The notes under the pieces are model-generated. The model was given only the letters and a program-made list of their open reading frames with translations. It was not told the DNA's origin and did no database searches. Made by a program: the position numbers and the translations under genes. Source: Solibacteraceae bacterium (GTDB taxonomy: Bacteria; Acidobacteriota; Terriglobia; Bryobacterales; Bryobacteraceae). From it: 64,000 bases of DNA. Shown piece by piece: positions 561 through 15,992 of the stretch (its first letter is position 1; every line of letters begins with the position of its first letter). The stretch spans positions 1 to 64,000 of the forward strand of contig JAJPJX010000146.1 in assembly GCA_021324015.1 (NCBI GenBank). The letters run 5' to 3'.

Positions 561-754
561 GTGCGCAACGAGTTCACCGCATTCTCGATCGAGAGTGCCC
601 GTGGGACGTCGCGTACTGCGCGGAAGTTCCCGAGTCTGACGGCCAGGGCGCATCGCGGGAAGAGTGTCTTGCGAACTTGCACGAGGCCATCGCGCTCATT
701 GCTGAGGCGGCGCGATTCGGAGATCGCCAATCTGCTCGCCAGGAGGATTTGTAA
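561..754 (+). pseudogene. HicB-family antitoxin remnant with a frameshift
   Basis: Two overlapping frames each carry half of a HicB-like antitoxin. The first, from GTG 561, reads MRNEFTA, a typical HicB start. The second reads ILDRECPWDVAYCAEVPE, then DGQGASREECLANLHEAI, the HicB core, and ends at 754. The join is around base 581; adding one base there would restore a single protein of about 64 residues. HicB proteins are RNase-H-fold antitoxins that bind the HicA mRNA interferase. No HicA frame is seen on either side, so this looks like a decayed, toxin-less copy. A sequencing error or programmed slip is less likely but cannot be excluded from one sequence. Confidence 0.6.
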
Positions 755-781
755 CAAGCTCTCGATTCCCGAGCCGCCGGG

Positions 782-1180
782 CTAGTCCAGCGCGCCGGAC
801 ACCGCCCGCAGCAACTCCTCCCGCGTGAAGGGCTTCGCCACCAGGACGAAGCCCTTCGTCTCGGCAAAAGCGTGCGTCACCGTACTGTCATGAAATCCGG
901 AGATGAACAACACGCGCAGGTCCGGCTGCCGGGCTAACAGGCGCGATGCCAGCGCCGGACCCGTCAAGTCCGGCATCATCACGTCAGTCAGTAGCAGGTG
1001 GATAGGGGAAGATGCACTCTCGTACACCTCGATGGCGTCTGACCCGCCGTTGGCCACCAGCACGTCGAACCCCGCGCCGGCAAGAATGACGCGCACGAGG
1101 TTTAGAACCGTCACGTCGTCATCCACCACGAGGATGGTGTGTTTACCCGGCATTTGGGCAATTGCGCCACAATCGGCCAT
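782..1180 (-). CDS. Receiver-only response regulator (CheY-like)
   Basis: The product has 132 residues and consists of little more than one receiver domain. Acidic residues D20-D22 (LVVDDD), the phospho-acceptor D66 (LLTDVMMP), S94 in place of the usual Thr (LFISG), and K116 (VAKPF) are all present, so it should be phosphorylatable. There is no output domain, so it probably acts through protein contacts or as part of a phosphorelay; no histidine kinase lies nearby. I chose the ATG at 1178-1180, preceded by an AGGGAAA ribosome-binding site, because the longer open frame upstream is only the antisense of gnd. It is transcribed divergently from gnd. Confidence 0.85.
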   Translation of the reverse strand: MADCGAIAQMPGKHTILVVDDDVTVLNLVRVILAGAGFDVLVANGGSDAIEVYESASSPIHLLLTDVMMPDLTGPALASRLLARQPDLRVLFISGFHDSTVTHAFAETKGFVLVAKPFTREELLRAVSGALD

Positions 1181-1366
1181 GCTGATTTCCCTGCGGAGAA
1201 GCGTGCCGCTGAGGGCTGCTGATTTGACTCGGCTTTGTCCGCAGGGCGGAAGGTTCCCTGTCGCCCTTGGATTGTGCCTCCGCTGACTTTTTATTATAGC
1301 CGCAGCTTCCCGTCGGCGAATCCAGCAGTTTCCGCGCCTCATCTGAATGCTGGAGGAGGAGTCTCG

Positions 1367-2290
1367 ATGGTACTTGGGATGATCGGTCTGGGCAAGATGG
1401 GAGCGAACATGGCGGAACGCCTCACCCGCGCCGGCCACCAGGTGGTAGGCTACGATCGCGATGCTGCCGCGGTCAAAAAGGTGATCGAACGCGGCGGCCT
1501 GGGCGCGGACTCTCTGCCCGCGCTGGCACGCCAGTTGCAACCCCGCCGCGCCATTTGGATCATGGTGCCCGCCGGCGATCCCGTGGATCAAACCATCCAG
1601 GCCCTCCTGCCCCACCTGGCGAAAGGCGACATCCTCATCGACGGCGGCAATTCCAATTACAAGGACTCGCAGCGGCGCGGCGCGGAGTTGAAGGCCCAGG
1701 GATTCGAGTTTCTGGATGTGGGCACCAGCGGCGGTATCTGGGGGCTCCGCGAAGGCTACAGCATGATGATCGGCGGCGACGGCGAAGCCGTCTCCTGGCT
1801 GCGTCCCATTTTCGAAGCTCTGGCGCCCGCCGCCGACAAGGGCTGGGGCCACGTGGGTCCGTCCGGCGCCGGGCACTTCGTCAAGATGGTGCACAACGGC
1901 ATCGAGTATGGCCTCATGCAGGCCTACGCCGAAGGGTTCGAGCTGATCCGCCGCAAGGAGGAGTTTCAGCCGGACCTGGTGCAGGTCGCCGAAATCTGGC
2001 GCTATGGCAGCGTGGTGCGCTCCTGGCTGCTCGACCTGATTGCCGATGCGCTGGGCAAGAACCCCAACCTGGAGGGAATCGCGCCGTACGTAGCCGACTC
2101 CGGGGAGGGCCGCTGGACGGCCAAAGAGGCCATCGACCTGGGTGTCGCCATGCCGGTCATCTCCCTGGCGCTGGAACGCCGCTTTCTGACCCATGACGCC
2201 GAGCGCTTCGCCGACCGCCTGCTGGCGGTCACCCGCCAGGAATTCGGCGGCCACGCCGTCAAGACCGAAGCGGGAAGGGCGCGCGGGTGA
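1367..2290 (+). CDS. gnd: 6-phosphogluconate dehydrogenase, decarboxylating (short form)
   Basis: A 307-residue protein with the N-terminal nucleotide-binding motif GLGKMG (residues 7-12), the substrate motif IDGGNSNYKDS and the catalytic lysine/asparagine stretch KMVHNGIEYG. It converts 6-phosphogluconate to ribulose 5-phosphate and CO2 in the cytoplasm. At about 300 residues it belongs to the short GntZ/YqeC-type subgroup rather than the 470-residue E. coli type; members of that subgroup often prefer NAD, which is inferred here. The ATG at 1367 is preceded by a strong GGAGGAGG site. The stop overlaps the GTG start of the HAD gene, so the two should be translationally coupled. Confidence 0.93.
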   Translation: MVLGMIGLGKMGANMAERLTRAGHQVVGYDRDAAAVKKVIERGGLGADSLPALARQLQPRRAIWIMVPAGDPVDQTIQALLPHLAKGDILIDGGNSNYKDSQRRGAELKAQGFEFLDVGTSGGIWGLREGYSMMIGGDGEAVSWLRPIFEALAPAADKGWGHVGPSGAGHFVKMVHNGIEYGLMQAYAEGFELIRRKEEFQPDLVQVAEIWRYGSVVRSWLLDLIADALGKNPNLEGIAPYVADSGEGRWTAKEAIDLGVAMPVISLALERRFLTHDAERFADRLLAVTRQEFGGHAVKTEAGRARG

Positions 2291-2895
2291 GCGTTCGCGC
2301 GTTGTTCTTCGACGTGGGCGGGGTGCTGGGCACCAACGGCTGGGACCGGGCCGCCCGGCGCCGCGCCGCCGCGGAGTTCCACCTGGACTGGGAGGAGCTC
2401 GAGGAGCGCCACGAGCTGCTGGCCGCGGATTTCGACAACGGCCGCATCACCCTGGACCAGTACCTGGAGCGCATCGTCCTTTACTGCCAGCGGCCCTTTT
2501 CGCGCGAGGCATTCCGCGAGTTCATGTACGCGCAGTCGCAGCCCAATCCCGGCAGCCTGGCTATCGTGGCGGAACTCGCGCGCTCCGGCCGCTACTTGCT
2601 GGCGACGCTGAACAACGAATCCGCGGAGCTGCACCGCTACCGCATCGAGCGCTTTGGGTTGCGCGGCCTGTTCACGGTGTTCTTTACCTCCTGCTACCTG
2701 GGTGTGCGCAAGCCGGACGAGAAGATTTACCGGCTGGCCATGGCGCTCACACAGCGTGAGCCGGAGGAGTGCCTCTTCGTGGACGACCGCGCCCTGAATG
2801 TGGAATCCGCCGCCCGGCTGGGCATTCCCGCCATCCGCTTCCAGTCCGCCGGGCAGCTTCGCGAGGAACTCGAGCGTCGCGGCGTTTTACCGTAG
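2287..2895 (+). CDS. HAD-IA family phosphatase
   Basis: A 202-residue haloacid-dehalogenase-fold hydrolase. Motif I is FFDVGGVL, with the nucleophile Asp present but the usual second Asp replaced by Gly, as also occurs in YihX-type sugar-phosphate phosphatases. The helical cap follows at about residues 15-85, then motif II (LLATLNNES), motif III Lys (GVRKPDEKIY) and the metal-binding motif IV (CLFVDDRALN). The GTG start at 2287 overlaps the gnd stop, so a cytoplasmic sugar-phosphate or metabolite-repair role fits the context, but the substrate is unknown. Confidence 0.85.
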   Translation: MSVRALFFDVGGVLGTNGWDRAARRRAAAEFHLDWEELEERHELLAADFDNGRITLDQYLERIVLYCQRPFSREAFREFMYAQSQPNPGSLAIVAELARSGRYLLATLNNESAELHRYRIERFGLRGLFTVFFTSCYLGVRKPDEKIYRLAMALTQREPEECLFVDDRALNVESAARLGIPAIRFQSAGQLREELERRGVLP

Positions 2896-2899
2896 AGGG

Positions 2900-3349
2900 A
2901 TGCCGGCGCGCATCCGCATCAGCCGCTTTCGCCTCGCCCAACTCCCCCGCATCCTGGCCATCGAAAATGCCGCCTTCCCGCGCGAGGCCTACAACCGGCA
3001 GATGTTCCTGGAACTGCATCGCGATTGCAGTCCTCTGTTTTACATCGCGCGTTATGGGCATGCCATCGCCGGATACATGGTGACCTGCACTGCCGGGAGC
3101 CACGCGGAGATCGTCTCCATTGCCGTCCATCCGCAGTTCCGGCAGCGCGGCTTGGGAGCCGCCCTGATGCGGCACACTTTGCGGCGCCTGAAACCAGCCG
3201 GCATCACGCAGGTGGACCTGATGGTCCGGACCACCAACGCCGCGGCCATCGCCTTCTATCGCCGATTCGGCTTCCGGCGCGCCCGCTGCGTGGCCGGCTA
3301 CTACGATGACGGCGCAGACGGGATACTCTACCGGCTGCGGCTGCACTAG
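2900..3349 (+). CDS. GNAT family N-acetyltransferase (RimI-like)
   Basis: A 149-residue protein with the GNAT fold: N-terminal beta strands, then the acetyl-CoA pyrophosphate loop in VHPQFRQRGLGAALMRHTL (Q/R-x-x-G-x-G/A) and the C-terminal motif RTTNAAAIAFYRRFGF. The arrangement resembles RimI/ArdAT-type ribosomal-protein or peptide N-acetyltransferases, but the acceptor cannot be assigned. The ATG at 2900 lies 4 bases after the stop of the HAD gene; a longer in-frame extension upstream overlaps that gene and looks non-coding. It is probably part of the gnd operon. Confidence 0.85.
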   Translation: MPARIRISRFRLAQLPRILAIENAAFPREAYNRQMFLELHRDCSPLFYIARYGHAIAGYMVTCTAGSHAEIVSIAVHPQFRQRGLGAALMRHTLRRLKPAGITQVDLMVRTTNAAAIAFYRRFGFRRARCVAGYYDDGADGILYRLRLH

Positions 3350-3367
3350 ACTGGTTGTGGTTGACCG

Positions 3368-3757
3368 ATGCCCCCGATTCTGCTGTGGCTGGCTTTTGCC
3401 GGCGCCCCGGATTTCCGCACATTCGTCGCGCGCGTGGAGCCGATCTTCGTGAAGCCCCGCGAGGGCAGCGCGCGCTGTTACGATTGCCACTCGCGTGAGA
3501 GCAACAAGGCTGCGTTTCATTTGGCGCCATTGGGGCCGGACGGCAAATGGAGCACCGCGCAGTCCCGCGCCAACTACGAGAACGTGCTGCGCCTGATCAC
3601 CCCTGGCGAGCCGCTGAAGAGCCGTTTGTTGACCCACCCCCTGGCGGCCGATGCCGGGGGCGACGAATTCCACACCGGCGGCAAGTTCTGGGCCTCGCAG
3701 GAGGACCCCGAATGGAAGCTCCTGTCGGATTGGGTGCGCGGCCGGCCCTCGAAGTAG
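3368..3757 (+). CDS. Small exported haem-binding protein with CxxCH motif
   Basis: A 129-residue protein. The hydrophobic start (MPPILLWLAFAGAP) could be a short signal peptide, and a single covalent haem-c motif, C37-Y-D-C40-H41, follows. The overall pattern resembles the planctomycete-type cytochrome C modules common in Acidobacteria and Planctomycetes: a haem site near the N-terminus, then PGEPLKSRLLTHPL and a closing EWKLLSDWVRG segment. These act outside the cytoplasmic membrane. It follows the acetyltransferase by 18 bases and converges on the receptor gene. The partner and redox role are unknown. Confidence 0.7.
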   Translation: MPPILLWLAFAGAPDFRTFVARVEPIFVKPREGSARCYDCHSRESNKAAFHLAPLGPDGKWSTAQSRANYENVLRLITPGEPLKSRLLTHPLAADAGGDEFHTGGKFWASQEDPEWKLLSDWVRGRPSK

Positions 3758-3766
3758 CGGCCGGCC

Positions 3767-6700
3767 CTAGAAAGTGAACCGGAGCGCGGCTTCGAGCGAC
3801 CTTGCGCCGCCGGTCTGAAACAGGGGCGCCAGGCCGCTTGCCGGACTGCCGGTTCCCAGCATCAGGTTCAGCATGGAAGGCGCGCTGCCAAACAGGGGAC
3901 TGGCCAGGTACCGCACCGGGTCCGCGAAATTCGGATGGTTCAGCGCGTTGAACGCTTCCAGCCGGAACTCGAGCCGGCGCTCGGCGCGGAGGGTGAAATC
4001 CCTGCGCAGAGCCAGATCGAGCTGCGACATGCCGAAACCGCTGAGAGCGTTGCGCCCCAGGCTGCCCTGCGTCAGGCCCGGCGTGGTTTCGAAAGCGGCG
4101 CGGTTCAAACGCCGGCCGCCCGGGGCGGCGCCGTCGGCGATCCAAACCGGCTGCCCGCCCACCAGGTCCGGGCGTGCGGCGTTGGCAAACGCGATGCCCA
4201 TGGCCTGATCGCTGTTCAGCACGGTGATGGGGAAACCCGTGCGGGTGTGCAGGATGCCGTCCAGCGCCCAGCCGCGCAGCCATGCGGCCCCCCGTCCGGC
4301 CGATCCCAGCGGTGGCAATTCCCAGGTGAAGGCCGCCGTGAAGGCATGGCGAGCATCGAAGTCGGAGGAGGCGCGGTCCTGCCCCAGGCTGACCGCCGGC
4401 CCCGCCCAGTAGAAGGCGGTGTCGGTGGAGCTGTTATCGAGCGAATGCGACCAGGTATACGCCACCAGGCCTTGCAGCCGCCGCGCCAGGCGCCGCCGGT
4501 ACTGCATCTCGAGCCCGTTATAGCCTGACGCGCCGTGGTTGGTGGCCAGCGCCACCCAGCTCACCGCACTGCTTCCCGGGCCTCCCATTTCCCGCCGGAT
4601 CAGGCGCCGGCCCTGCGAGCCCACGTATCCCACCGTCACCGCGTCGTGATCGCCAAAGGCGTGCTCTACCGAGGCGCTGTATTGTGCCACTACCGGCATG
4701 CGCAGGTTCGGCACGAAGCCGTAGCTCAGCAGCATGGAAAACGGCGCGTACCGGTCGTTGCCGAACTGGCGCACGCCCAGCGGGCCGCCGTTGATCACAT
4801 CCGTGGCGATGCTCAGGCTAGAGTCGTAATAAAGGCCGCCGCCGATCCGCACCACCGTGCGGTTGCTGTGCGACGGCTGGAAGGCCAGGCCCAGCCGGGG
4901 CGCGAAGTTCGAAAAGCGCTGCGGCCAGATGGGGCCGCTCGTGCGCACCACCGTGCCCTGCACCGGGTCCAGCGAGTAGGAAGGCAGGTTGTAGGCCGGC
5001 GGAGGGCTGTACTCCCAACGCAGTCCGTAGGTCAGCGTGAAGCGGGAAGCGATGCGCCAGGTGTCCTGCGCGAACAGGGACAGCTCGCGTACTACCACAG
5101 AGTCGTATTCCGGCGGGGAACTGGCGATCCACAGGTTGTGGTTCGAGACGAAATCGTCCAGGTTGTCCGCGATCACGCTCAGCGTGCCCGTGGCATCGTG
5201 GCGGTCGGGCGCCAGGCGGCGGTAGTCGAACCCCGCGCGGAGGCTATGCGCCCCGCGGTTCCGGCTGGCAGTCCCGGTCACGTTCCACTGGGTTTGCTGC
5301 CGGTCGCCCTCGCGGCCCGAGATGATCTCCCCGACCCCGGAAATCGAGAAGCGCAACAGCCGGTCACACAGGCCGGGCACGCGCACCAGGTAGAGCGTCG
5401 TGGGCTCCAGGCTGCAGCCCGCCGCCGTGTCGTCCATGGTCTTCCAGAATGTGTGCACCGCCGACACCGAGCCGTTGGTGCGCAGGTCCACGACCAGGTC
5501 TGAGGGGGCGCGCAAGTTCAGACCGGCGGTGAGACTTTTCGCCCGCAGGTTCAGTTGACTGATCTCGGTGGCGCCGAACTCGTTGAACGACGGCGAATCA
5601 TTGTAGCGCGCAAACAGCGTCAGACGGGAGGAGATCGCATGGTCCAGCCGGAGACTCCCCACGTCCAGGCGTGAGGGCCGGTTGTTCCGCCCGATCCACG
5701 CCGCCAAGCCATTGCCCAGGTCCCCTCCGTTGGCCACGGGGAAAAAATTCAGCGCTGGCTGCATGGCTGCCGGCGCCTCTGCCCGTGCCTCCGCGGAGGG
5801 CACCGCGGTCTCCCAGGCAAAAGGCTGGCGCAGCCGGATCCCTTCATAAGAGAGAAAGAAGAACGTGCGGTCGCGCCGGATGGGACCACCCAGGCTGGCG
5901 GCGAAGTCATTCAGACGCAGAGCCGCCCTTCCCTCGCCGTTCTGATTGGCGAACCAGTCGTTGGCCGCCATGTCTTCGTGCCGGAAGGCGTAAACCAGCG
6001 AACCGTGTAGGTTGTTGGAGCCCGAGCGGCTCACGAGAGCTACTTGCGCGCCCGGCAGCTTGCCGAACTCCGGCCTGGCCGTGGCCGTCTCGATGCGGAA
6101 TTCATCCAGCGCTTCGAGCGGTATCAGGCTGTGCAGGCTGCCCAGAGCCGACATGCCGGGCAGCGTCCCGCCGGTGGCCTGAGCCGGAAGGCCGCCCGCG
6201 CTCACGCCCGTGTTGGCGCTCAGCCCGTCGATGGTGAAATAGTTGCTGTTGGGCCGTTGTCCGCTGGCCGTGAACTGCCCCGCTTCTCCGCGGGTGGCGG
6301 GGGTCACCAGGGTTCCCGGCGCCAGGTCCATGAGCGCCAGCAGGTTGTGGCCGCTCAATGGAAGGCGCTCGATCCGGTCGCGGCCGATCACGGTGCTCAC
6401 CGCGGCATCCTGCGAATTTGAGCCCGGGGCCGTGCCCTCCACCGTGATGGTCTCCCGCACGCTGCCGATGGAAAGCAGGAAATCCGCCTCTGCCGGTCTG
6501 CCCAATTCCAGCTTCACGCCGAAGCGGATCATGGTGCGGAACCCTTCTTTGCGCACCGTGATTTTGTAGACTCCCGGGTCGAGCGAGGCCACCACGTAGC
6601 CGCCATCCGGCTGCGATCGCACCTCCCGGCGGAAGCCGGAGTCCTCGTTCAGCACGGTCACCTGGGCTTCCGGAACGGCCGCGCGCGAAGGGTCCAGGAT

Positions 6701-6796
6701 CACTCCGGAGACGTAGGAGAACGGCTGGGCCCGCACCGGCGCCGCGCCTGCCACACAGAACAGCAAGAGAGGCAGCACGCGGCGCGGATGCTTCAT
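3767..6796 (-). CDS. TonB-dependent receptor, Oar-like, with carboxypeptidase-regulatory domain
   Basis: A 1009-residue outer-membrane protein. Residues 1-23 form a signal peptide (LLLFCVAGAAPVRA). A carboxypeptidase-regulatory-like beta-sandwich follows (about 28-110, GVILDPSRAAVPEAQVTV), then a plug-like domain (LPLSGHNLLALMDLAPG, FTIDGLSANTG), then a large beta-barrel that ends in Phe (ALRFTF), as outer-membrane barrels do. Such Oar-type receptors are expanded in Acidobacteria and are thought to import or bind large polymers; the ligand is unknown. Its ATG overlaps the stop of the anti-sigma gene by four bases, which ties its expression to the sigma/anti-sigma pair. Confidence 0.9.
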   Translation of the reverse strand: MKHPRRVLPLLLFCVAGAAPVRAQPFSYVSGVILDPSRAAVPEAQVTVLNEDSGFRREVRSQPDGGYVVASLDPGVYKITVRKEGFRTMIRFGVKLELGRPAEADFLLSIGSVRETITVEGTAPGSNSQDAAVSTVIGRDRIERLPLSGHNLLALMDLAPGTLVTPATRGEAGQFTASGQRPNSNYFTIDGLSANTGVSAGGLPAQATGGTLPGMSALGSLHSLIPLEALDEFRIETATARPEFGKLPGAQVALVSRSGSNNLHGSLVYAFRHEDMAANDWFANQNGEGRAALRLNDFAASLGGPIRRDRTFFFLSYEGIRLRQPFAWETAVPSAEARAEAPAAMQPALNFFPVANGGDLGNGLAAWIGRNNRPSRLDVGSLRLDHAISSRLTLFARYNDSPSFNEFGATEISQLNLRAKSLTAGLNLRAPSDLVVDLRTNGSVSAVHTFWKTMDDTAAGCSLEPTTLYLVRVPGLCDRLLRFSISGVGEIISGREGDRQQTQWNVTGTASRNRGAHSLRAGFDYRRLAPDRHDATGTLSVIADNLDDFVSNHNLWIASSPPEYDSVVVRELSLFAQDTWRIASRFTLTYGLRWEYSPPPAYNLPSYSLDPVQGTVVRTSGPIWPQRFSNFAPRLGLAFQPSHSNRTVVRIGGGLYYDSSLSIATDVINGGPLGVRQFGNDRYAPFSMLLSYGFVPNLRMPVVAQYSASVEHAFGDHDAVTVGYVGSQGRRLIRREMGGPGSSAVSWVALATNHGASGYNGLEMQYRRRLARRLQGLVAYTWSHSLDNSSTDTAFYWAGPAVSLGQDRASSDFDARHAFTAAFTWELPPLGSAGRGAAWLRGWALDGILHTRTGFPITVLNSDQAMGIAFANAARPDLVGGQPVWIADGAAPGGRRLNRAAFETTPGLTQGSLGRNALSGFGMSQLDLALRRDFTLRAERRLEFRLEAFNALNHPNFADPVRYLASPLFGSAPSMLNLMLGTGSPASGLAPLFQTGGARSLEAALRFTF

Positions 6797-8490
6797 TCGA
6801 CCGTTCTCCCACCCGGCTGCGAGAGCAGACGCTCGTAGGCTTCGGCGCCGGCCCGCAACTGCGTCAGGCTCTCCAGCAGCTCCGCGGGCAGCCGGGCCTC
6901 GGGCACCGGCGGCGGCGCCGCGGCGAACAGGGCTGCCAGTAGGGTCTCGGTGTGCCGCGCCTCCCGGAACAGCTCCTCGGTGGCCGGCTGCCAGGCGCCT
7001 GCGGAAAGGGCGGAGCGCGCGGCGGTGGCCGCCGGCCCGGCCAGCGGTGACAGCACCGGGTTCAGCAGGCGCTGCAACTCGACTGTCTGGCGTGCGAGCA
7101 CGCCGGTGTGCTCCTGCACCATCTGGCGCAGCAACTCCTGGTCCTGGCTGCTCAGCCCGGCCGCCGCATCGGAGGGAAAGCGATCCGCCAGGCGGCGCAG
7201 AGCGTAGATCCGGGACATTACCGCATCGCTCATGTCCAGCGCCTGGCCGGCCAGTTGCTCGAAAAACGCCCGCCCGCCGAGCTGCTCCTCCATGCGGGCC
7301 TGTAAGCCGGGGGCTTCCGCTCTTACTGCCTCAGCGCCGCCGGGCCGCGCCGGCGGCGCGCCTGCCGCGGGTTCGGCGAACCGGATCACGACCCTGGGCA
7401 TCGCGGCCAGCGCTTCCTGAATGCGCTGCTGCCGTTCGGCGCCTACCCCCACGCCGCTGACCAGGATCTGGCTGCCGCTGCGCCGCACCTCTATAGGATC
7501 GCCCAAATCGGCCCCCACCTGGTGTAGGGCCGCCAGCACCCGCAGTTCGTCGCCCACAGTGGCGGGCGGCTTGGCGGCCGGTGCCGCTGCGGCTGGATGC
7601 GGGGCCGGCGGCAGCGTGGGAGCGATGCGCTCCTCCCGGTTGACCTCGCCGGCGATCTCCGCGGCGGCGCCCTCGTCCAGCACGGTGATCTCCACCCATT
7701 CCCGATTGCGGAACTCCAGCCGCTCTTCCACCGGGCGATAATCCCGTGCGTCCAGGCGCAGCACAGCCTCCTGCAAAACTCCCGACTGTGTGGTGGTCCG
7801 GATGCGGTATCCGCCCGGCCTGCCGCTGATGGAGGTGACCTCGTCGCGGCGGTCCGCCAGTTGCTCTCGCCACGCCGCATACGAGCGCGCGCTGAGCGGG
7901 TCCTCCCAACTGTAGTGCGCCGCAGCGAACAGCGCCTCGAGCGGCGCGGCCCCGGCTTCCTGCGGGACGCTCCCGGCGCGGGCTCCGATCACCCGCGTGA
8001 GGCGCTGCTGCCGCGTGCGAATCTGGATGCGCCGCGGACCCTCGCGGCGCGCTTCCGCCGCCACCGCCTTGCGCAGCAGCGCGGCGGCCCGCACCGAGGG
8101 CGCGTTCTGAAACTGGTAGATTATCGCCGCGACCAGCGCCAGGGCCACGGCCGCCGGAGCCCAGCGCCGGGCCGGCCCGGCCAGCCGCGCCACCGCTTGC
8201 GCCATGCGCCGCGCCAAAGAAACCGGCTCCAGCGCGGCATCTGCTTCCGCCATGCGCCGGCGCAAATCCGCCCAGGGCGCCGGCGGGGGCGGCAGATGCG
8301 CCTGCCACACATCCTTCCGATACCGCACGCACTCGCCCGCCACCCGTTGGATCTCCTCGATCTCCAGGCGGCATTGCCAGCAGGCCTCCAGGTGCTCCCG
8401 GACCCGGCCGGCGGCACGCGACCCCAGTTCCCCATCCGCGTACCGCAACAACTGTTCGCCTTCGGGGTGGCGCATTTCCAGACTACGCAT
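6793..8490 (-). CDS. Transmembrane anti-sigma factor with zf-HC2 domain and large periplasmic part
   Basis: A 565-residue protein. Residues 8-60 carry the zinc-binding anti-sigma motif H33-x3-C37-x2-C40. A proline-rich linker and one membrane helix (about 110-127, WAPAAVALALVAAIIYQF) follow, then a 430-residue extracytoplasmic region. That region includes a stretch around 315-365 (VEVRR/SGSQILVSGVGVG pattern) that resembles a BON fold, and a helical C-terminus. It should hold the adjacent ECF sigma factor at the membrane and release it on an outside signal. It overlaps the sigma gene by 8 bases and the receptor gene by 4. The periplasmic part is much longer than in standard anti-sigma factors. 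An ATG at 8475 is an alternative start. Confidence 0.8.
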   Translation of the reverse strand: MRSLEMRHPEGEQLLRYADGELGSRAAGRVREHLEACWQCRLEIEEIQRVAGECVRYRKDVWQAHLPPPPAPWADLRRRMAEADAALEPVSLARRMAQAVARLAGPARRWAPAAVALALVAAIIYQFQNAPSVRAAALLRKAVAAEARREGPRRIQIRTRQQRLTRVIGARAGSVPQEAGAAPLEALFAAAHYSWEDPLSARSYAAWREQLADRRDEVTSISGRPGGYRIRTTTQSGVLQEAVLRLDARDYRPVEERLEFRNREWVEITVLDEGAAAEIAGEVNREERIAPTLPPAPHPAAAAPAAKPPATVGDELRVLAALHQVGADLGDPIEVRRSGSQILVSGVGVGAERQQRIQEALAAMPRVVIRFAEPAAGAPPARPGGAEAVRAEAPGLQARMEEQLGGRAFFEQLAGQALDMSDAVMSRIYALRRLADRFPSDAAAGLSSQDQELLRQMVQEHTGVLARQTVELQRLLNPVLSPLAGPAATAARSALSAGAWQPATEELFREARHTETLLAALFAAAPPPVPEARLPAELLESLTQLRAGAEAYERLLSQPGGRTVE

Positions 8491-9037
8491 GATTCACCTT
8501 CCTCAGCCTCACCAGCGCGCGGCGCAGAAACTCGCCCACCGCCGACGGGCTGATCCCCAAAATGGTGCCGATCTCGGGGTATCGCAGGCCTTCCAGGCGC
8601 AGATGCAGACACCTCCGCTGCTGCTCCGACAATCCCTCCACGCCTCGGTGGAACCGCAGCATCCGTTCCCTCTCCAGCAGGTTTTCCTCCGGATTCAACT
8701 CACTGCCGGCCAGTTTGCCTTCCAGATCCGGGTCGAAAGGCGCCTGGTTGCTCTCCCGCGCCCGGATCTTCAGCCCCAGGTTGTGGGCCACCCGGAAGAT
8801 CCACGCCCGGCAGTTCTGAATGTCTTCGCCTTTCCGCAGCGTGACGTACAGGCGCAGAAAGACCTCCTGCGTAGCCTCCTGCGCCTGCGCGGGGTACAAG
8901 CCCAGCGTCAGCAGGTAGCGGTACACGTCTTCGCGCGCCTCTTCGAACAACTGCGCCACGCGGTCCCGCAAGCTCATCGCGGCGCGTTCTTCGCGGAGCA
9001 TGCGCGCCAGTTCCTCAGAAAGCGGATAGGACGACAT
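8483..9037 (-). CDS. ECF-subfamily RNA polymerase sigma factor
   Basis: A 184-residue sigma-70-family protein with only regions 2 and 4. Region 2 spans about residues 28-95 (AQEATQEVFLRLY and CRAWIFRVAHNLGLK). Region 4 spans about 125-182, with the helix-turn-helix LSEQQRRCLHLRLEG followed by YPEIGTILGISPSAVGEFL. It directs RNA polymerase to an alternative promoter class and is presumably held inactive by the overlapping anti-sigma factor downstream. The three overlapping genes (sigma, anti-sigma, receptor) suggest it controls its own operon and the TonB-dependent receptor. A TATGAT on the minus strand about 35 bases upstream of the start could be its -10 box. Confidence 0.92.
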   Translation of the reverse strand: MSSYPLSEELARMLREERAAMSLRDRVAQLFEEAREDVYRYLLTLGLYPAQAQEATQEVFLRLYVTLRKGEDIQNCRAWIFRVAHNLGLKIRARESNQAPFDPDLEGKLAGSELNPEENLLERERMLRFHRGVEGLSEQQRRCLHLRLEGLRYPEIGTILGISPSAVGEFLRRALVRLRKVNHA

Positions 9038-9180: not shown

Positions 9181-10236
9181 ATGCCCTCTCCACCCTTGGT
9201 GTCCGTCACCGTGGTTACGCACAACAGCGGCCGGGTTGTCGGTCCGTGCCTGGAATCGGTCTTTCGCCAGCAGGGTGTTCGGGTGGAGGTCATTGTGGTG
9301 GACAACGCCTCGGCGGACGACACCCCGGACCTGCTGGCGCGCTACCGAGGCCGCCTGCGCCTGCTTCGAAACACCCGCAATCTGGGCTTCGCGGCGGCGC
9401 AGAACCAGGCCATCGCGCAGGCCGCCGGCGAGTGGGTGCTGACGCTGAATCCAGACGTGCTGCTGCTGCCCCGCTTCCTGGATCATCTGGTAGCGGCCGC
9501 CCGGCTGGATCCGTCCGCCGGATCTGCCTGCGGCAAGCTTTTGGCCATCGGCCCCGGGTTCCAGCCTCTCGAAGAGCCGCTCCTGGATTCCACCGGCATC
9601 TATTTCACTCCTTCCCTGCGCCACTTCGACCGTGGCTGGCACGAGCCGGACGACGGGCGATTCGATCACCGGGAATATGTCTTCGGCGCCAGCGCGGCCG
9701 CGGCTCTGTACCGCCGCGCCATGATTGCGGACGTCTCCGACGGCGCGGACTTCTTCGATCCGGACTTCTTCGCCTATCGCGAGGACGCCGACCTGGCCTG
9801 GCGCGCCCAGTTGCTGGGCTGGCGCTGCCTCTACGTTCCGGAAGCCGCCGCCTATCATGTGCGACGTGTGGTTCCGGGCAACCGGCGCGCCGTGCCTGCG
9901 GTCCTGAACATGCACTCCGTCAAGAACCGCTTCCTGATGCGCATCAAGAACATGACCCCCGGCGTCTACCGCCGCTGCTGGCTGCCTGCCACGCTGCGCG
10001 ATTGCGTGGTGGTGGGCGGTTGCCTGCTCTGGGAGCAGACTTCACTGGCGGCCTTTTGGCGCGTGGCCCGCTGCCTGCCGGCCGCCCTCGAAAAGCGCCG
10101 CCGCATCATGCAACGCCGCCGGGTCCCGGACGCAGCGATCGCGCCCTGGTTCGCCGCCGAGACACCGCTCCCCCCTGGTGTTGGCAGCGGGTTGCCGAGC
10201 CGCGACCGTGAGGGAGCGGTGGAGACGGCCGGCTAG
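9181..10236 (+). CDS. Glycosyltransferase family 2
   Basis: A 351-residue GT-A fold transferase of the rhamnosyltransferase-like kind. The N-terminal motif VSVTVVTHNSG, the nucleotide-binding VDNASADDTPD, the metal-site region LTLNPDVLL and the acceptor-side REDADLAWRAQLLGW are all visible. It should move a sugar from a nucleotide donor onto a cell-surface glycan at the cytoplasmic face of the membrane. GTG 9148 is an alternative start; ATG 9181 places the first strand at the usual distance from the N-terminus. The last residues (SRDREGAV) are encoded by a dispersed intergenic-type repeat, so the natural C-terminus has probably been replaced or extended. It overlaps the convergent transglycosylase gene by 4 bases. 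Confidence 0.87.
   Translation: MPSPPLVSVTVVTHNSGRVVGPCLESVFRQQGVRVEVIVVDNASADDTPDLLARYRGRLRLLRNTRNLGFAAAQNQAIAQAAGEWVLTLNPDVLLLPRFLDHLVAAARLDPSAGSACGKLLAIGPGFQPLEEPLLDSTGIYFTPSLRHFDRGWHEPDDGRFDHREYVFGASAAAALYRRAMIADVSDGADFFDPDFFAYREDADLAWRAQLLGWRCLYVPEAAAYHVRRVVPGNRRAVPAVLNMHSVKNRFLMRIKNMTPGVYRRCWLPATLRDCVVVGGCLLWEQTSLAAFWRVARCLPAALEKRRRIMQRRRVPDAAIAPWFAAETPLPPGVGSGLPSRDREGAVETAG
10190..10220 (-). repeat. Dispersed 31-base repeat, copy in the 3' end of the glycosyltransferase gene
   Basis: Read on the minus strand, this 31-base stretch begins ACCGCTCCCTCACGGT and ends GCGGCTCGGCAACC. It matches a second copy at 43650-43679 at 26 of 31 positions when one gap is allowed. One copy is intergenic and the other is inside a coding frame, where it is translated as PSRDREGAV. 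This is what a small mobile or REP-like repeat does when it lands at a gene end. Confidence 0.65.
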
Positions 10237-11684
10237 GCGCCCTGCCCGGTCACTTCCGGTACGCGTTCCCGCAATGCCGCCTGGGCTTCCTCGAACACCT
10301 GGCTGAAGAACCGGCGCGAGGTGGGCGAGCAGCCGATGTGCAGGATGCGGCTGTTCTCCGGCTCTTCAATAAAGCCCAGGTTGCCGCTCCAGCCCAGGTC
10401 GTCCAGCACGAAACGCAGGCACTCGCGCTCGGCGGCAGGCACGCCTTCCAACGTAAGATCGATCACCTGGCCGGTGCTATGCTCGTCCAGTCCGTTGCGT
10501 GGCCCCCCACGGTGCCACAGCGCGGCTACCGGGAGCGGCACAAACGCCTCTCCCTCGGGATGCGCGGTATCATACAGGCGGCGCGTTTCATAGGCGATAT
10601 AGACGAGCGTGCCGAGGGCCGCCGGTGAAGCCATGGCCGGCTCCCCCGGCGGCGGGCGGAAACCCAGAAACTCAGGTGCATCCGGGGCGCTCGCCAGCGC
10701 CCTGCCTGCGGCGGCTGTTTCCAGGTCTGCGGGTGTCAGCCATACGGAGAGCCGGTCCGGCGCGCGCTGCGACGGGTTGGAGCGAAAGCGGTACTCTTCG
10801 GCCAGCGCACGGAACGCCCGGGGGTCCTCTTTGTAGAGCGCCAGCAACTGCTGGGCGCGCATGACCCGGAACCAGTAAGTGGGCGAGTAGTCCCGTTCCA
10901 TCTGCCGCCGGATCTCGTCGTAAAGCTCCCGGTGGAATGCGGGGCTGCACGAAAAGAACATCCGGGCCACGCTCATGGGCGCGGCTGGGGAGTCTGCGGC
11001 CTGCCCGGCCAGTTGGCGAAATTCCGCCACGCAGCCTTCCCCGCAATGGTAGGCGAACACGGCCCAGTCGCGGCCGCCGAAGTGCTCCTCCATCCGCGCC
11101 AGGTACTTGGCCGCTGCCGGCAGGGCTCGCTCCGGCACCAGACGGTCGTCCCGCACGATAGCTTCGTAGCGTTCCTTGCGGCGGTACTTCACGTACACCA
11201 GCTTGCCGCGCTTGTTGCGCACCTGCTTGCGCGTCACGGTCACCCGGTAGCGGCGCGCGTGCACCACCTTCAGCCCGATCCTCCGGGCGGTCGCCTCGGA
11301 GATTTGCATAATGCCTTTAGGACCGGCCGGGCTGACTGCTTTCGCGTCACCCCAGCTCTCCAGGTACGCAATCGCCGCCAGCAGGGAAACCGGCAGACCG
11401 CTCTTGCGCGCGGCGTCCTGGAAGAGGCGCTGCATGCGCGGGCTGGTGATCCGCTGGGCGCCGGCCAGCGCCTGCGGGTCGCGCATGATGGCGAAGGTCT
11501 GCGACTGGATCATCTGCTCCACGCGCTCGGCCAGCGCGCTGTCACTGATCCCCTCCCTCGCCACACCGATGCCCGGCAGAGTCTGGCTGGGTACAAACCG
11601 GGCGGAGGATACCGCAAGGCCGGGGGCGCTCCCGAGCACCGCCAGGAGCGCGCTGGCTAGGGAAGGGCGCAGGCGTGAGCGCAT
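10233..11684 (-). CDS. Lytic transglycosylase with SLT domain
   Basis: A 483-residue exported protein. An N-terminal signal peptide (about 1-25) is followed by a soluble lytic transglycosylase domain from about residue 85 to 230. The catalytic pair E109-S110 lies in AIAYLESWGDAKA, and GPKGIMQIS and the later VFAYHCGEGCV fit the SLT fold. A basic stretch (about 150-175) rich in Arg/Lys interrupts the domain and is unusual. The enzyme should cleave the MurNAc-GlcNAc bond of peptidoglycan in the periplasm, forming 1,6-anhydro ends. The C-terminal 200 residues are not recognised. Convergent with the glycosyltransferase. Confidence 0.83.
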   Translation of the reverse strand: MRSRLRPSLASALLAVLGSAPGLAVSSARFVPSQTLPGIGVAREGISDSALAERVEQMIQSQTFAIMRDPQALAGAQRITSPRMQRLFQDAARKSGLPVSLLAAIAYLESWGDAKAVSPAGPKGIMQISEATARRIGLKVVHARRYRVTVTRKQVRNKRGKLVYVKYRRKERYEAIVRDDRLVPERALPAAAKYLARMEEHFGGRDWAVFAYHCGEGCVAEFRQLAGQAADSPAAPMSVARMFFSCSPAFHRELYDEIRRQMERDYSPTYWFRVMRAQQLLALYKEDPRAFRALAEEYRFRSNPSQRAPDRLSVWLTPADLETAAAGRALASAPDAPEFLGFRPPPGEPAMASPAALGTLVYIAYETRRLYDTAHPEGEAFVPLPVAALWHRGGPRNGLDEHSTGQVIDLTLEGVPAAERECLRFVLDDLGWSGNLGFIEEPENSRILHIGCSPTSRRFFSQVFEEAQAALRERVPEVTGQGA

Positions 11685-11750
11685 CTCTACTACTCACCTT
11701 ACCCGAATTTGTCCGGGTTGTCGCTCGCACCAGCCGGGAACTGCCTGGTC

Positions 11751-13706
11751 CTACCGCGCCGCCCGCCGCTCCGCTCCCGCCGCCGGCGCCAGCGCGGCCA
11801 CGGCCCACGCCGTCGCGCTGGCCGAAATCCACTGGTCGTGCTCGTAGGGGAACCCGCTCTGGAAATACGGCTGGAACTTCGGCGCGCGGCTGCGCACGTA
11901 CCAGGAACCATCCGGAAACTGCGTGCGCCGCAGGAACCCCACGCCGCGCCGGTATACCGCATCCGCCGGGCTCGCCGTGCCGCTCTCGTGCAGCGCATAG
12001 AGCGCCTCCCCGGTGGCGAAGGCGTCGCTCGAGAGGTTGGCATTCTGCGCCCAGCCCCCGTCGGCCCGCTGTTCTGCCTTGAGCGCCTCGGCGGCCCGCC
12101 GCACTTTCGCGCGGTCCACGCCCGCCCAGTGCAACCCGGCCAGGTACATTGCCCGCTCGTCCGTGGTCGCTGGCTCGGACTCGAGCAGCCACGCCGTGGC
12201 GCGCGCCAGCCGCCGGTCGAACTCGGCCTTGCGTCCCGGCGGCCCGTAGATCTTCAGCCCGCGAATCGCCAGCGCCGTGCGGCTGATGTGGCTCTCCTCC
12301 ATCGGCGCGCGTGAAATTCCTCCCAGGTACCAGCTTCCGTCGGCCCGCTGTTCGGCGGCGATCTCCGCTGCCATGGCGTCGGTCACTTCGTCCGGCGGTG
12401 CGCCCTCCGCGGCCAGGCCCAGGAGCGCGAAGATCAGTTGGTCCGCTCCGCCGCCGAACGAGATGCGCTCGAGCAGCATTTCCCGGAAGCCGGTCCACTG
12501 GGCCTTCACAGTCTTCTGACTCTCCTGCGCGGTCGCCTCGTCCACGGGAATCCCGCTGGCGCGCGCCGCGCCCACGGCGACCGCGCTCATGTTCTGGTGA
12601 TGGCAGGCGGCGCAGCCGCCCTGCCGGAAGAACTCCGCGGCGGAGCGCTGCAACAGCGGCACGCTGCGCATGACGGCCGTTCGCGCATCCCGCGGCTCCG
12701 GGCCGTCTCCGCGCTGCGGCGGCGCGTATGCGAGAGCCTCTTTGGCGCCGGCGGCCTGGAGCATTGCAACGACACGTCTGCTGCCGAACTTTCGGGCCCA
12801 GTCCAGCGCCGTCTCCCCAGCGTCGCTCCGGCCATTCGCCTCCGCGCCCGCATCCAGCAGCAGCCGTACCACCCGCGGATCCTGCCTTTCCGATGCCACC
12901 GCCAGCATCAGGGGCGTCATCCCCCGGACATCCAGCGCGTTCACCTTCGCCCCCGCCGCGAGCAGCGTCCGTATCAGTTCCGGGGATCCAAACGGCGCCG
13001 CCAGGTGCAGCGCCGTCAGCTTCGTCAAGGCGATCGGCCCGTTTTTGACTTTGCCGCCGAACCGGTTGGCCGCGTTCACGTCCGCTCCCTTGGCCAGCAG
13101 TAGTTTTACCGCCTCCAGGTCACAGTTGCCCGCCGCCGACATGAGCGCCGTGTTGCCGCCCTCGTCCGCCGAGTTGGCGTCCAGACCCTTTTCGAGCAGC
13201 AGTCGCACGGTCTCCGGATCGCCGGCGTCCGCCGCCGTGAGCAGGGCGCTATTGCCGTGCGTGTCTTTGGCTTGGGGATCCGCCCCTTTGGCCAGCAGCA
13301 GCCGTACTGTCTCCGATGCGCCCGCAATCGCTGCGGCCGACATCAGCGGCGTGCGCCCCAGTTTAGAACGCGCGTTGACGTCCGCGCCGCGGTCCACCAG
13401 CAGCCGCACTTTCGCCGGATCCGCCGCCCCCCAGATCAGAGCCGTGGCCTCCAGTTGGCTTTTGGCGTTGACGTCGGCCCCGGCGTCCAGCAGCAGCTTC
13501 ATCGCCTCCGGGCTGCCGAAAGCCGCGGCGTGCATCAGCAGCGTGGCTCCGCGCCGATCACGCCGGTTCACGTCCAGGCCCTTTGCCATCTGAGATTTCA
13601 GCGAGGGAAGATCGTTGTTGCGAATGGCCAGGAACGGATCGTCCCCGGCGTTCGCGCAAAAGGGCAGAAACAGCGCTGCCGCTGCCGCCAGTTCCCGGAC
13701 CGACAT
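11751..13706 (-). CDS. Ankyrin-repeat / CxxCH / alpha-alpha toroid fusion protein
   Basis: A 651-residue exported protein in three parts. After a signal peptide ending near FCANA, residues 25-330 hold about nine ankyrin repeats (GATLLMHAAAFGSPEAMKLL, GADVNAK and similar). A haem-type motif, C365-A-A-C368-H369, follows in a linker. Residues 430-640 carry repeats of the squalene-cyclase/prenyltransferase toroid kind (EQRADGSWY, EQRADGGWA, FPDGSWY). Ankyrin repeats bind proteins, CxxCH would carry haem c in the periplasm, and toroid repeats often form enzymes or binding scaffolds; the joint function is unknown. An AGGAGGGG site precedes the ATG, with a possible TATGAT -10 further up. Confidence 0.8.
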   Translation of the reverse strand: MSVRELAAAAALFLPFCANAGDDPFLAIRNNDLPSLKSQMAKGLDVNRRDRRGATLLMHAAAFGSPEAMKLLLDAGADVNAKSQLEATALIWGAADPAKVRLLVDRGADVNARSKLGRTPLMSAAAIAGASETVRLLLAKGADPQAKDTHGNSALLTAADAGDPETVRLLLEKGLDANSADEGGNTALMSAAGNCDLEAVKLLLAKGADVNAANRFGGKVKNGPIALTKLTALHLAAPFGSPELIRTLLAAGAKVNALDVRGMTPLMLAVASERQDPRVVRLLLDAGAEANGRSDAGETALDWARKFGSRRVVAMLQAAGAKEALAYAPPQRGDGPEPRDARTAVMRSVPLLQRSAAEFFRQGGCAACHHQNMSAVAVGAARASGIPVDEATAQESQKTVKAQWTGFREMLLERISFGGGADQLIFALLGLAAEGAPPDEVTDAMAAEIAAEQRADGSWYLGGISRAPMEESHISRTALAIRGLKIYGPPGRKAEFDRRLARATAWLLESEPATTDERAMYLAGLHWAGVDRAKVRRAAEALKAEQRADGGWAQNANLSSDAFATGEALYALHESGTASPADAVYRRGVGFLRRTQFPDGSWYVRSRAPKFQPYFQSGFPYEHDQWISASATAWAVAALAPAAGAERRAAR

Positions 13707-13771
13707 ACTTCACCCCTCCTGAGGTGCCGCAATCATAAGGGATCGCCGCTTCCCGGTCAACGGAAAACTGC

Positions 13772-13777
13772 TAGAAT
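13772..13777 (+). promoter_or_regulatory. Candidate -10 box giving a leaderless start at 13786
   Basis: TAGAAT lies 8 bases before the ATG at 13786, so transcription would begin at or next to the start codon. There is no Shine-Dalgarno sequence before this ATG. No convincing -35 element is visible. Confidence 0.45.
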
Positions 13778-13785
13778 TCCCTCGA

Positions 13786-14844
13786 ATGAGCGCCCAGGAC
13801 TCCCAGAACAGCTTCCCCAGAATCCATAACGCCATGTGGCCCGGATTGGTAGGCAAGGGGCCGGATTCGGAACCCCCCATCGACCTGGACACCATGCTGC
13901 GCCTGACCGCCGCCGCCGAGGTCAACGGCGTGAAGTTCGACGGTGTGGACCTCTTCCTCTTTGACCCGCACATCAGCATCGATTCCACGCCCGACGACCT
14001 GAAACGCCTGGCCGACAAGGTGCGTGCGCTCGGCCTGGTGGTGGGCTCAGTCGTGGCGCCCGTCTGGCCGCCCACCGGCGGCGGTTCCGCCATGGGAAGC
14101 GCGGCCGAGCGCGCCCGCTTCGTCGAGCAGGTCCACAAGGCCTGCCACATCGCCCGTACGCTGCGCGAACTGGGCATCCGCCCCTACGGCGTGGTGCGCA
14201 TCGATTCCGCCGCGAGCCCCGCGGACTGGGCCCAGGATCCCGAAGGCAACACCCGCCGCATCGCCGAAACCTTCCGCGAAGCCTGTGCGGTCGCCGAAGA
14301 TCACGGCGAGCGTCTGGCCGCCGAAGGCGAAATTTGCTGGGGCGGCATGCATAGCTGGCGCGCCATGGTGCGCCTGCTCGAACTGGTAAACCGTCCGAAG
14401 ACCCTCGGTTTCCAGGCCGACATGGCCCACACCCTGCTCTTCACGCTGGGCTATAACGCGCCCGAGGACCGCATTCTGCCGCCGGACTTCGTCTGGGGCC
14501 AGGGCGGCGGACTCGACGCCGCGCTGCGCACTCTGACCGCCGCCCTGCGCCCCTGGACCATCGACTTCCATGTGGCCCAGAACGACGCCACCGTGAAAGG
14601 CTCCGGCTCGCACGACAAAACCGGCCACCACTGCCTGCCTCACGATCCCAACGGCAAGCTTGATATCGTCCGCCACGCCGGCCTCTGGATCCGCGGCGAA
14701 GACGGGCAGCCCACCCGCGCCTTCCGGCACATCTGCTGGGACGGCTGCATGTTCCCCAATGCCGTGATGATGAACCAGCAGACCTGGAACGACATTCTCT
14801 CCGTCATGATCGCCGTGCGCGCGGCCCACGGGTGGAACGAATAG
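13786..14844 (+). CDS. Sugar phosphate isomerase/epimerase family protein (TIM barrel)
   Basis: A 352-residue cytoplasmic protein of the xylose-isomerase-like TIM-barrel superfamily. Supporting segments are [14 protein letters not shown] near the N-terminus, [19 protein letters not shown] in the middle and possible metal ligands in [20 protein letters not shown] and IDFHVAQND. Such enzymes isomerise or epimerise keto-sugars or inosose derivatives. It is the first of three genes with a dehydrogenase and a nitrilase-family amidase, which suggests a catabolic route for an uncommon sugar or sugar amide. No ribosome-binding site is present; a -10-like TAGAAT is 8 bases upstream. Confidence 0.8.
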
Positions 14845-14846
14845 GT

Positions 14847-15992
14847 ATGAGCACAAAACCATTGCATGTCGGGCTGGTGGGCTATGGCTTCATGGGCCGC
14901 ACCCACTCCAACGCCTTCGCCCAGGTCAACCATTTCTTCCCGCTGGATTACCAGCCCGTCCTCAAAGCCGTGTGCGGCCGTGATGCCGCCAGGACCGCGG
15001 CCTTCGCCGCGCAGTGGGGCTACGAATCGGTGGAATCCGACTGGCGCCGCCTGGTCGAGCGCCGGGATATCGACCTGATCGATATCGCCAGCCCCAACGA
15101 TACGCACGCCGAAATCGCCATTGCCGCGGCCCAGGCGGGCAAAATGGTCCTGTGCGAAAAGCCGCTGGGTAGAAACGCGGCGGAATCCGTGCGGATGGCC
15201 GCCGCCGTGGAGCAGGCCGGCGTGCCCAACATGGTCTGGTATAACTATCGCCGCGTCCCGGCCGTGATGCTTGCCAAGCAACTGATCGACCAGGGGCGGC
15301 TGGGGCAGATCTTCCATTACCGCGCCAAGTTCCTCCAGGACTGGACCATCTCCCGCGATCTGCCCCAGGGTGGCGCGGCCCTCTGGCGCCTGGACGTCAG
15401 CGTGGCCGGCAGCGGCGTCACCGGCGACCTGCTGGCCCACTGCATCGATACCGCCATGTGGCTGAACGGCTCCATCGATCAGGTCACCGCCATGACCGAG
15501 ACTTTCATCAAGGAGCGCAAACACAACCTAACCGGCAAGGTGGAAAAGGTCGGCATCGACGATGCCAGCGCCTTCCTCGCCCGCTTCGCCAACGGCTCCC
15601 TCGCCATCTTCGAGGCCACGCGCTACGCCCGCGGCCACAAGGCCCTCTACACCCTGGAAATCAACGGCGAGCACGCCTCCATCTTCTGGGACCTGCACGA
15701 CCTGCACCGCCTGCAATACTTCGATCACCGCGACGAAGGCCCGCTGCGCGGCTGGCGCTCCATCCACATCACCGACGGAGACCATCCCTACATGCAGCAC
15801 TGGTGGGTACCGGGCCTGCAAATCGGCTACGAGCACACCTTCATCCACCAGGTGGCCGATTTCCTGGAGGGTCTGGCCTCCGGCAAAGCGCCGGGCCCGT
15901 CGTTCCGCGACGGTCTGGCCACGGATCACGTCACCGACGCGGTGCTCAAATCCGCGCAATCCGGCCGTTGGGAACCGGTGGCGCGGGCATAA
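14847..15992 (+). CDS. Gfo/Idh/MocA family oxidoreductase
   Basis: A 381-residue NAD(P)-dependent dehydrogenase. The Rossmann motif [12 protein letters not shown] is at residues 9-20, and the family signature [12 protein letters not shown], with the catalytic lysine, follows at about 96-107. The C-terminal alpha/beta domain carries the usual [16 protein letters not shown] with the conserved His. These enzymes oxidise sugars or inositols in the cytoplasm. It begins 2 bases after the stop of the isomerase gene, so the two are likely co-translated and may act on the same compound in turn. Confidence 0.9.

Follow-up and report, generated by a model that had tools for sequence, protein, structure and literature searches.

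A single gene on the minus strand occupies positions 11751 to 13706 of the window, by which we mean the whole 64,000-nucleotide stretch of Solibacteraceae DNA analysed here (contig JAJPJX010000146.1, from a host genome of 8.2 Mb in 214 contigs). The initial annotation had given the span of this open reading frame exactly and had left its strand unstated. A Shine-Dalgarno-like AGGAGGGG lies immediately 5' of the ATG at 13706, and the predicted product carries the following features:

11751..13706, minus strand: whole gene, 651 amino acids, with a signal-like N-terminus, an ankyrin domain and a CxxCH-toroid (open reading frame, Pfam, AlphaFold2)
13647..13706, minus strand: predicted signal peptide at about residues 1-20, judged by eye from its hydrophobic stretch and its final ANA
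12753..13637, minus strand: ankyrin domain of nine helix pairs over residues 24-318 (Pfam PF12796 and model)
11754..12686, minus strand: CxxCH-toroid module over residues 341-651, modelled as six hairpins formed by twelve long helices
12600..12614, minus strand: CAACH motif of haem c type, residues 365-369, in the loop between toroid helices 1 and 2
11901..11948, minus strand: QW-type motif RGVGFLRRTQFPDGSW, residues 587-602 (regular expression)
11823..11861, minus strand: conserved loop QSGFPYEHDQWIS, residues 616-628 (conservation; placed on the CxxCH side from helix order)

Read by eye, residues 1-20 resemble a Sec signal peptide with an ANA end, as had been proposed from the letters, and the orthologue N-termini look signal-like in the same way; residues 1-19 have a pLDDT below 50 in the full-chain AlphaFold2 model. 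The protein is thus probably exported, to judge from its N-terminal sequence. The ankyrin domain is matched by PF12796 at 1.3e-49 and its best fold match is the DARPin 6mol_A (Z 27.0, 2.7 A over 290); the nine ankyrin-like helix pairs modelled in residues 24-318 agree with the count of about nine repeats made earlier. Matches to Dot/Icm effectors in NCBIfam were rejected as ankyrin cross-matches, lying far below the cut-offs of those families.

Directly downstream, a lytic transglycosylase gene (10233-11684, minus strand) codes for 483 residues with an SLT domain at residues 87-145; no homologue of it turned up at any of the 17 orthologue loci. Minus-strand genes at 6793-9037 encode an ECF-type sigma factor and then a 565-residue protein with a zinc-finger match below cut-off, and are perhaps a sigma/anti-sigma pair.

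Fold and conservation of the C-terminal module

AlphaFold2 models were computed from 18 aligned sequences. The full chain reached a pLDDT of 89.6 and a pTM of 0.88; modelled by itself, the C-terminal module scored 87.6 and 0.89. The toroid lies at the C-terminus as first described, but it is larger than the 220 residues then allotted to it, covering some 310 residues (341-650) with the CxxCH included. Structure prediction, which had been set in advance as a test of the toroid, gave two cyclases as best solved matches, 2sqc for squalene-hopene (Z 23.5, 262 residues at 3.4 A) and 1w6k for oxidosqualene (Z 23.1, 275 residues at 3.2 A). Behind them came synthases of drimenyl and copalyl diphosphate, thioester domains of complement and hydrolases of the GH105 type; Foldseek ranked drimenyl-diphosphate synthases and squalene-hopene cyclases at the top. 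In Pfam, SQHop_cyclase_N scored above its cut-off (32.1 bits against 26.2) and SQHop_cyclase_C narrowly below (24.9 against 26.1). Both the Pfam and the fold matches fit the earlier reading of the ADGSW/ADGGW repeats as a toroid of the squalene-cyclase type.

Conservation was followed through a set of 118 modules. Dropping spans of less than 150 residues and removing duplicates by their last 100 residues left 125 modules, from which those cut on the N side were taken out (120 left) and then two more entries, a true cyclase and an unrelated long protein. In a tree made by a quick method, a branch with support 88 splits the 101 rows of the ankyrin clade from the standalone relatives (17 modules). 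The QW motif, searched with a regular expression for what we take to be its consensus, occurs in the query, in 83 of the 101 ankyrin-clade modules and in 11 of the 17 standalone ones.

The CAACHH reported from the sequence corresponds to residues 365-370. In the model, the CxxCH site falls in the first hairpin loop of the six-hairpin toroid and not between modules, so that motif and toroid do occur together, as had been noted, but as one module instead of two separate ones. Compared with much of the toroid, this loop is modelled with low confidence: residues 22-25 of the module model have a pLDDT below 50, and the block 361-370 has one of 78 in the full-chain model. Every one of the 18 alignment rows, made up of the query and the 17 orthologue loci, which were found with motif-containing queries, keeps C365, C368 and H369. 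Such invariance among orthologues that are 39 to 61% identical to the query over the best segment means that the CxxCH is not a chance occurrence. Its conservation in orthologues had also been fixed beforehand as a test, and it is present in 116 of the 118 modules: 100/101 in the ankyrin clade and 16/17 among standalone relatives. The ankyrin-clade exception, one of the paralogues at L079, reads CAGACH, a CxxxCH variant; in the standalone exception (L117, 1225-2124, plus strand) the CxxCH stretch is deleted and the remaining module kept. At two further loci (L025 and L026), the orthologue frame is broken near the CxxCH region, either by sequencing error or by a real frameshift.

Other toroid loops are conserved as well. 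Each of the segments CxxCH, RxP, DGGW/SDA and DGSW to HDQWIS lies between an odd long helix and the next even one, and this helix order therefore suggests that they share one face with the CxxCH. In the ankyrin clade, the polar loop residues R466 (101/101), R607 (100/101) and Q625 (99/101) are nearly invariant, and Q546 (96/101) and D561 (92/101) are also conserved. No His, Met or Cys outside the CxxCH is conserved enough in the 101 ankyrin-clade modules for a ligand role, the best candidates for a sixth ligand being weakly kept (H623 in 54/101, M637 in 51/101).

The squalene-hopene and drimenyl-diphosphate synthases among the best folds, together with the one QW motif, could point to a terpene cyclase or a prenyltransferase using an isoprenoid. 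This is, however, a most improbable reading. The DxDD motif, not visible to the initial annotation, is indeed absent from the query and from all 119 modules other than the one true cyclase, and it is present in 6 of the 7 distinct cyclase-like proteins listed. Moreover, the N-terminus is signal-like, and a true squalene-hopene cyclase with PDIDDT is encoded on a different contig of the same genome. The missing DxDD and this separate enzyme both agree with the earlier judgement that the toroid is probably not a cyclase.

The complement matches suggest in turn a thioester between C368 and Q371 that would serve covalent surface attachment. Complement C3 and C4 carry their thioester in the sequence CGEQNM, to which the query CHHQNM is locally similar, and the C4 and C5 structures align with the module at Z scores from 19.1 to 20.5. 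Q371 is nevertheless found in just 62/101 ankyrin-clade modules and in 1/17 standalone ones, and C365 (101/101) and H369 (100/101) are kept though a thioester needs neither. The thioester domain was rejected as a candidate, and we give this reading hardly any weight.

Distribution, architectures and gene neighbourhoods

Within the taxonomic family of the window, 74 of 121 genomes, with the own genome among them, reach E <= 1e-10 and 67 reach E <= 1e-50; seven of the 74 do no better than 1e-30 to 1e-10 and may hold other toroids. A sample of the phylum gave matches in 17 of 297 genomes at E <= 1e-10, again counting the own genome, and both of these counts come from motif-containing queries. The richest genome (G401) has 11 matches, in 7 separate places among the matches listed; one of its loci (L079, G401:C341) carries three paralogous toroid genes in a stretch of about 10.4 kb (5106-6950, 10709-12616 and 13390-15468), with genes for a Ser/Thr kinase and an ECF sigma factor lying between them. 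Among plasmids from outside the phylum, the query module had no match at 1e-5, and a standalone relative was found at E <= 1e-8 in one record (Sphingobium). That alphaproteobacterial protein, annotated only as 'hypothetical protein', has a signal-like N-terminus, a CVSCH and a toroid match.

A motif-free profile was built from the part of the module C-terminal to the CxxCH, using input rows that all carry the motif. Searched against 396 phylum genomes, it matched 34 at E <= 1e-8, with 44 rows that were grouped into 43 genes. Among the 29 genes at E <= 2e-12, a CxxCH stands ahead of the toroid in 25, one of them (L035) a broken gene with its CxxCH on a separate frame piece. The other four are truncated, being contig-end cuts or gene fragments, and no complete gene lacking CxxCH was found among the 29. 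As for the 14 weaker genes, CxxCH is present in three and absent from nine, two in very long frames having been left out. The nine consist of six cyclase-like proteins and of L117, L118 and L120, the last two covered only in part; CxxCH occurs in 0/6 and DxDD in 5/6 of the cyclase-like proteins. A weak similarity was also recorded between the A1 profile, positions 10-43, and an engineered cytochrome c555 trimer (whole-chain E 6.6e-6, no single stretch passing).

Searching for proteins of the same domain order, as had been advised, showed by regular expression that 63 of the 118 modules follow an ankyrin domain and that 9 precede one. In 22 more, an upstream CxxCHG, taken as PSCyt1, is followed by ankyrin repeats and then by the toroid. 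Pfam confirmed PSCyt1 (PF07635) in both relatives scanned (L022 and L029), found no match to it in the query at E <= 1, and agreed with the regular-expression architectures in the cases scanned. The remaining 24 modules, without detected ankyrin repeats, are the 17 standalone relatives and 7 members of the ankyrin clade, some of the latter being cut by frame breaks or contig ends and others giving no ankyrin match to the pattern. On the tree, architecture changes 12 times against 49.5 with shuffled labels, as estimated by a quick method with midpoint rooting.

The own genome contains two further toroid genes. One is a second member of the family, with ankyrin repeats after the toroid, in which the contig ends before the place of the motif. 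The other (L134, C95:7000-14000, at 612-4139 on the minus strand) is an open frame of 1176 codons in which a CVACH precedes the toroid and is followed by HEAT repeats and by a cytochrome-like C-terminal end with CVHCH. Three matches to the cytochrome assembly family Cytochrom_C_asm (PF01578) lie above cut-off in this genome.

The gene neighbours that were to be compared alongside domain order yielded no constant partner, and none pointing to a redox partner, across 66 loci that each have a distinct toroid gene and do not include the window. Kinases are no more frequent there (13/66) than in control stretches (4/20). One type of ECF sigma factor occurs at 6/66 loci, five times adjacent and once three genes off, against 0/20 controls; six cases are too small a number, and the loci are not independent of one another. 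A second type occurs at 2/66 against 0/20. Other clusters of neighbours comprise kinases, PQQ propellers and single enzymes, with nothing constant among them.

A putative haem c protein outside the cytoplasm

Haem c is likely to be attached covalently at the CxxCH. We base this on the invariance of the two cysteines and the histidine, on the spaced CxxxCH variant, on the likely export of the protein, on the fusions to cytochrome domains and on the presence of assembly proteins. A clustering of two cysteines with one or two histidines could also make a metal (zinc) site or a redox disulfide in an exported toroid protein, and the CxxCH pair are indeed the only cysteines in 64/101 ankyrin-clade modules, with a second histidine at 370 in 47/101. 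A disulfide would have no need, however, of the near-invariant H369 (100/101), a metal site would be left without further conserved Cys or His to complete it, and relatives are fused to a cytochrome domain, so that we regard this alternative as distinctly unlikely.

The reading we lean towards is that of an exported monohaem c-type cytochrome in which the toroid is a redox enzyme or a ligand-binding protein, with the haem at the mouth of its cavity. The haem would be bound through C365 and C368, with H369 of the same first hairpin loop as its ligand, and would probably be five-coordinate or have a variable sixth ligand. A reaction could then take place on something held in the toroid cavity. 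We infer such an enzymatic role from the fold and the conservation. In the paralogues with PSCyt1, this cytochrome domain of the same chain may exchange electrons with the toroid haem. The ankyrin repeats would form a docking arm towards a partner protein or a surface, a suggestion made because they are optional and found on either side of the toroid. Against this overall reading count the low model confidence of the motif loop, the absence of a conserved partner gene and the survival of one relative, L117, after deletion of its motif.

Alternatively, a protein with a c-type haem could serve plain electron transfer or act as a scaffold. Its toroid would then be a platform without substrate, and both the ankyrin repeats and the toroid would be protein-binding surfaces that place the haem beside other cytochromes. 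The PSCyt1-type motif upstream in 22 of 118 modules, an architecture rich in repeats, the absence of DxDD, and the union of CxxCH, toroid, HEAT repeats and a C-terminal CxxCH in L134 are all in line with this idea. On the other hand, the near-invariant polar loop residues, which the helix order would place on one face, resemble a binding or active site, and the sixth ligand is not conserved. Electron carriers usually have a conserved sixth haem ligand, although it is not obligatory. We therefore find the electron-transfer reading rather doubtful. An enzymatic or ligand-binding role is preferred over that of a pure electron carrier because of the toroid fold and its one-sided conserved loops. 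It also fits the finding that no sixth ligand is conserved.

Members of the family probably perform redox chemistry outside the cytoplasm. More tentatively, the CxxCH-toroids could constitute a new class of haem enzymes, periplasmic oxidoreductases with a c-type haem at the toroid mouth and a substrate in the cavity, which the bacterial family of the window would have diversified into many paralogues per genome by the addition of ankyrin and cytochrome domains; the substrate might perhaps be a hopanoid, a polyprenoid or a glycan.

The fold and the motif are each known, and we found their union unreported: a search of the open-access literature, subscription papers being outside its scope, returned no description of a CxxCH-toroid family, the papers that came up being on other subjects, such as PMC5462960 on hopanoid genes in Acidobacteria. 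If the haem is real, the fold of squalene cyclases has become that of a cytochrome, a scaffold for haem c that is not known to have been described, and genes that may be filed as squalene-cyclase-like or hypothetical would have a likely exported redox role. To our knowledge, no cytochrome c with a toroid fold has been known.

Comparison with known systems

The module is closest to squalene-hopene and oxidosqualene cyclases (PF13249, PF13243; 2sqc, 1w6k), with which it shares the alpha/alpha toroid, the DGGW/DGSW repeats of QW type and a sequence profile match. It differs from them in being one toroid of about 310 amino acids, against chain lengths of 623 residues for 2sqc and 725 for 1w6k, and in the lack of DxDD; the query also has a signal-like N-terminus, a CxxCH in the first hairpin and an ankyrin domain, unlike the cyclases. 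The complement C4 and C5 thioester domains are likewise alpha/alpha toroids, with reactive residues early in the domain, but their Cys-x-x-Gln is not conserved in the module, which has a CxxCH in its place. GH105 and unsaturated glucuronyl hydrolases share the alpha/alpha toroid at Z of about 19 to 20, with 10 to 14% identity to the module in structural alignments, which makes this a fold-level comparison. Finally, the module has the CxxCH of c-type cytochromes, and in L022 and L029 the ankyrin-toroid follows an N-terminal PSCyt1, the planctomycete cytochrome C domain. In contrast to c-type cytochromes, the haem motif is carried by a toroid instead of the small cytochrome c fold, and a distal Met or His is not conserved in the module.
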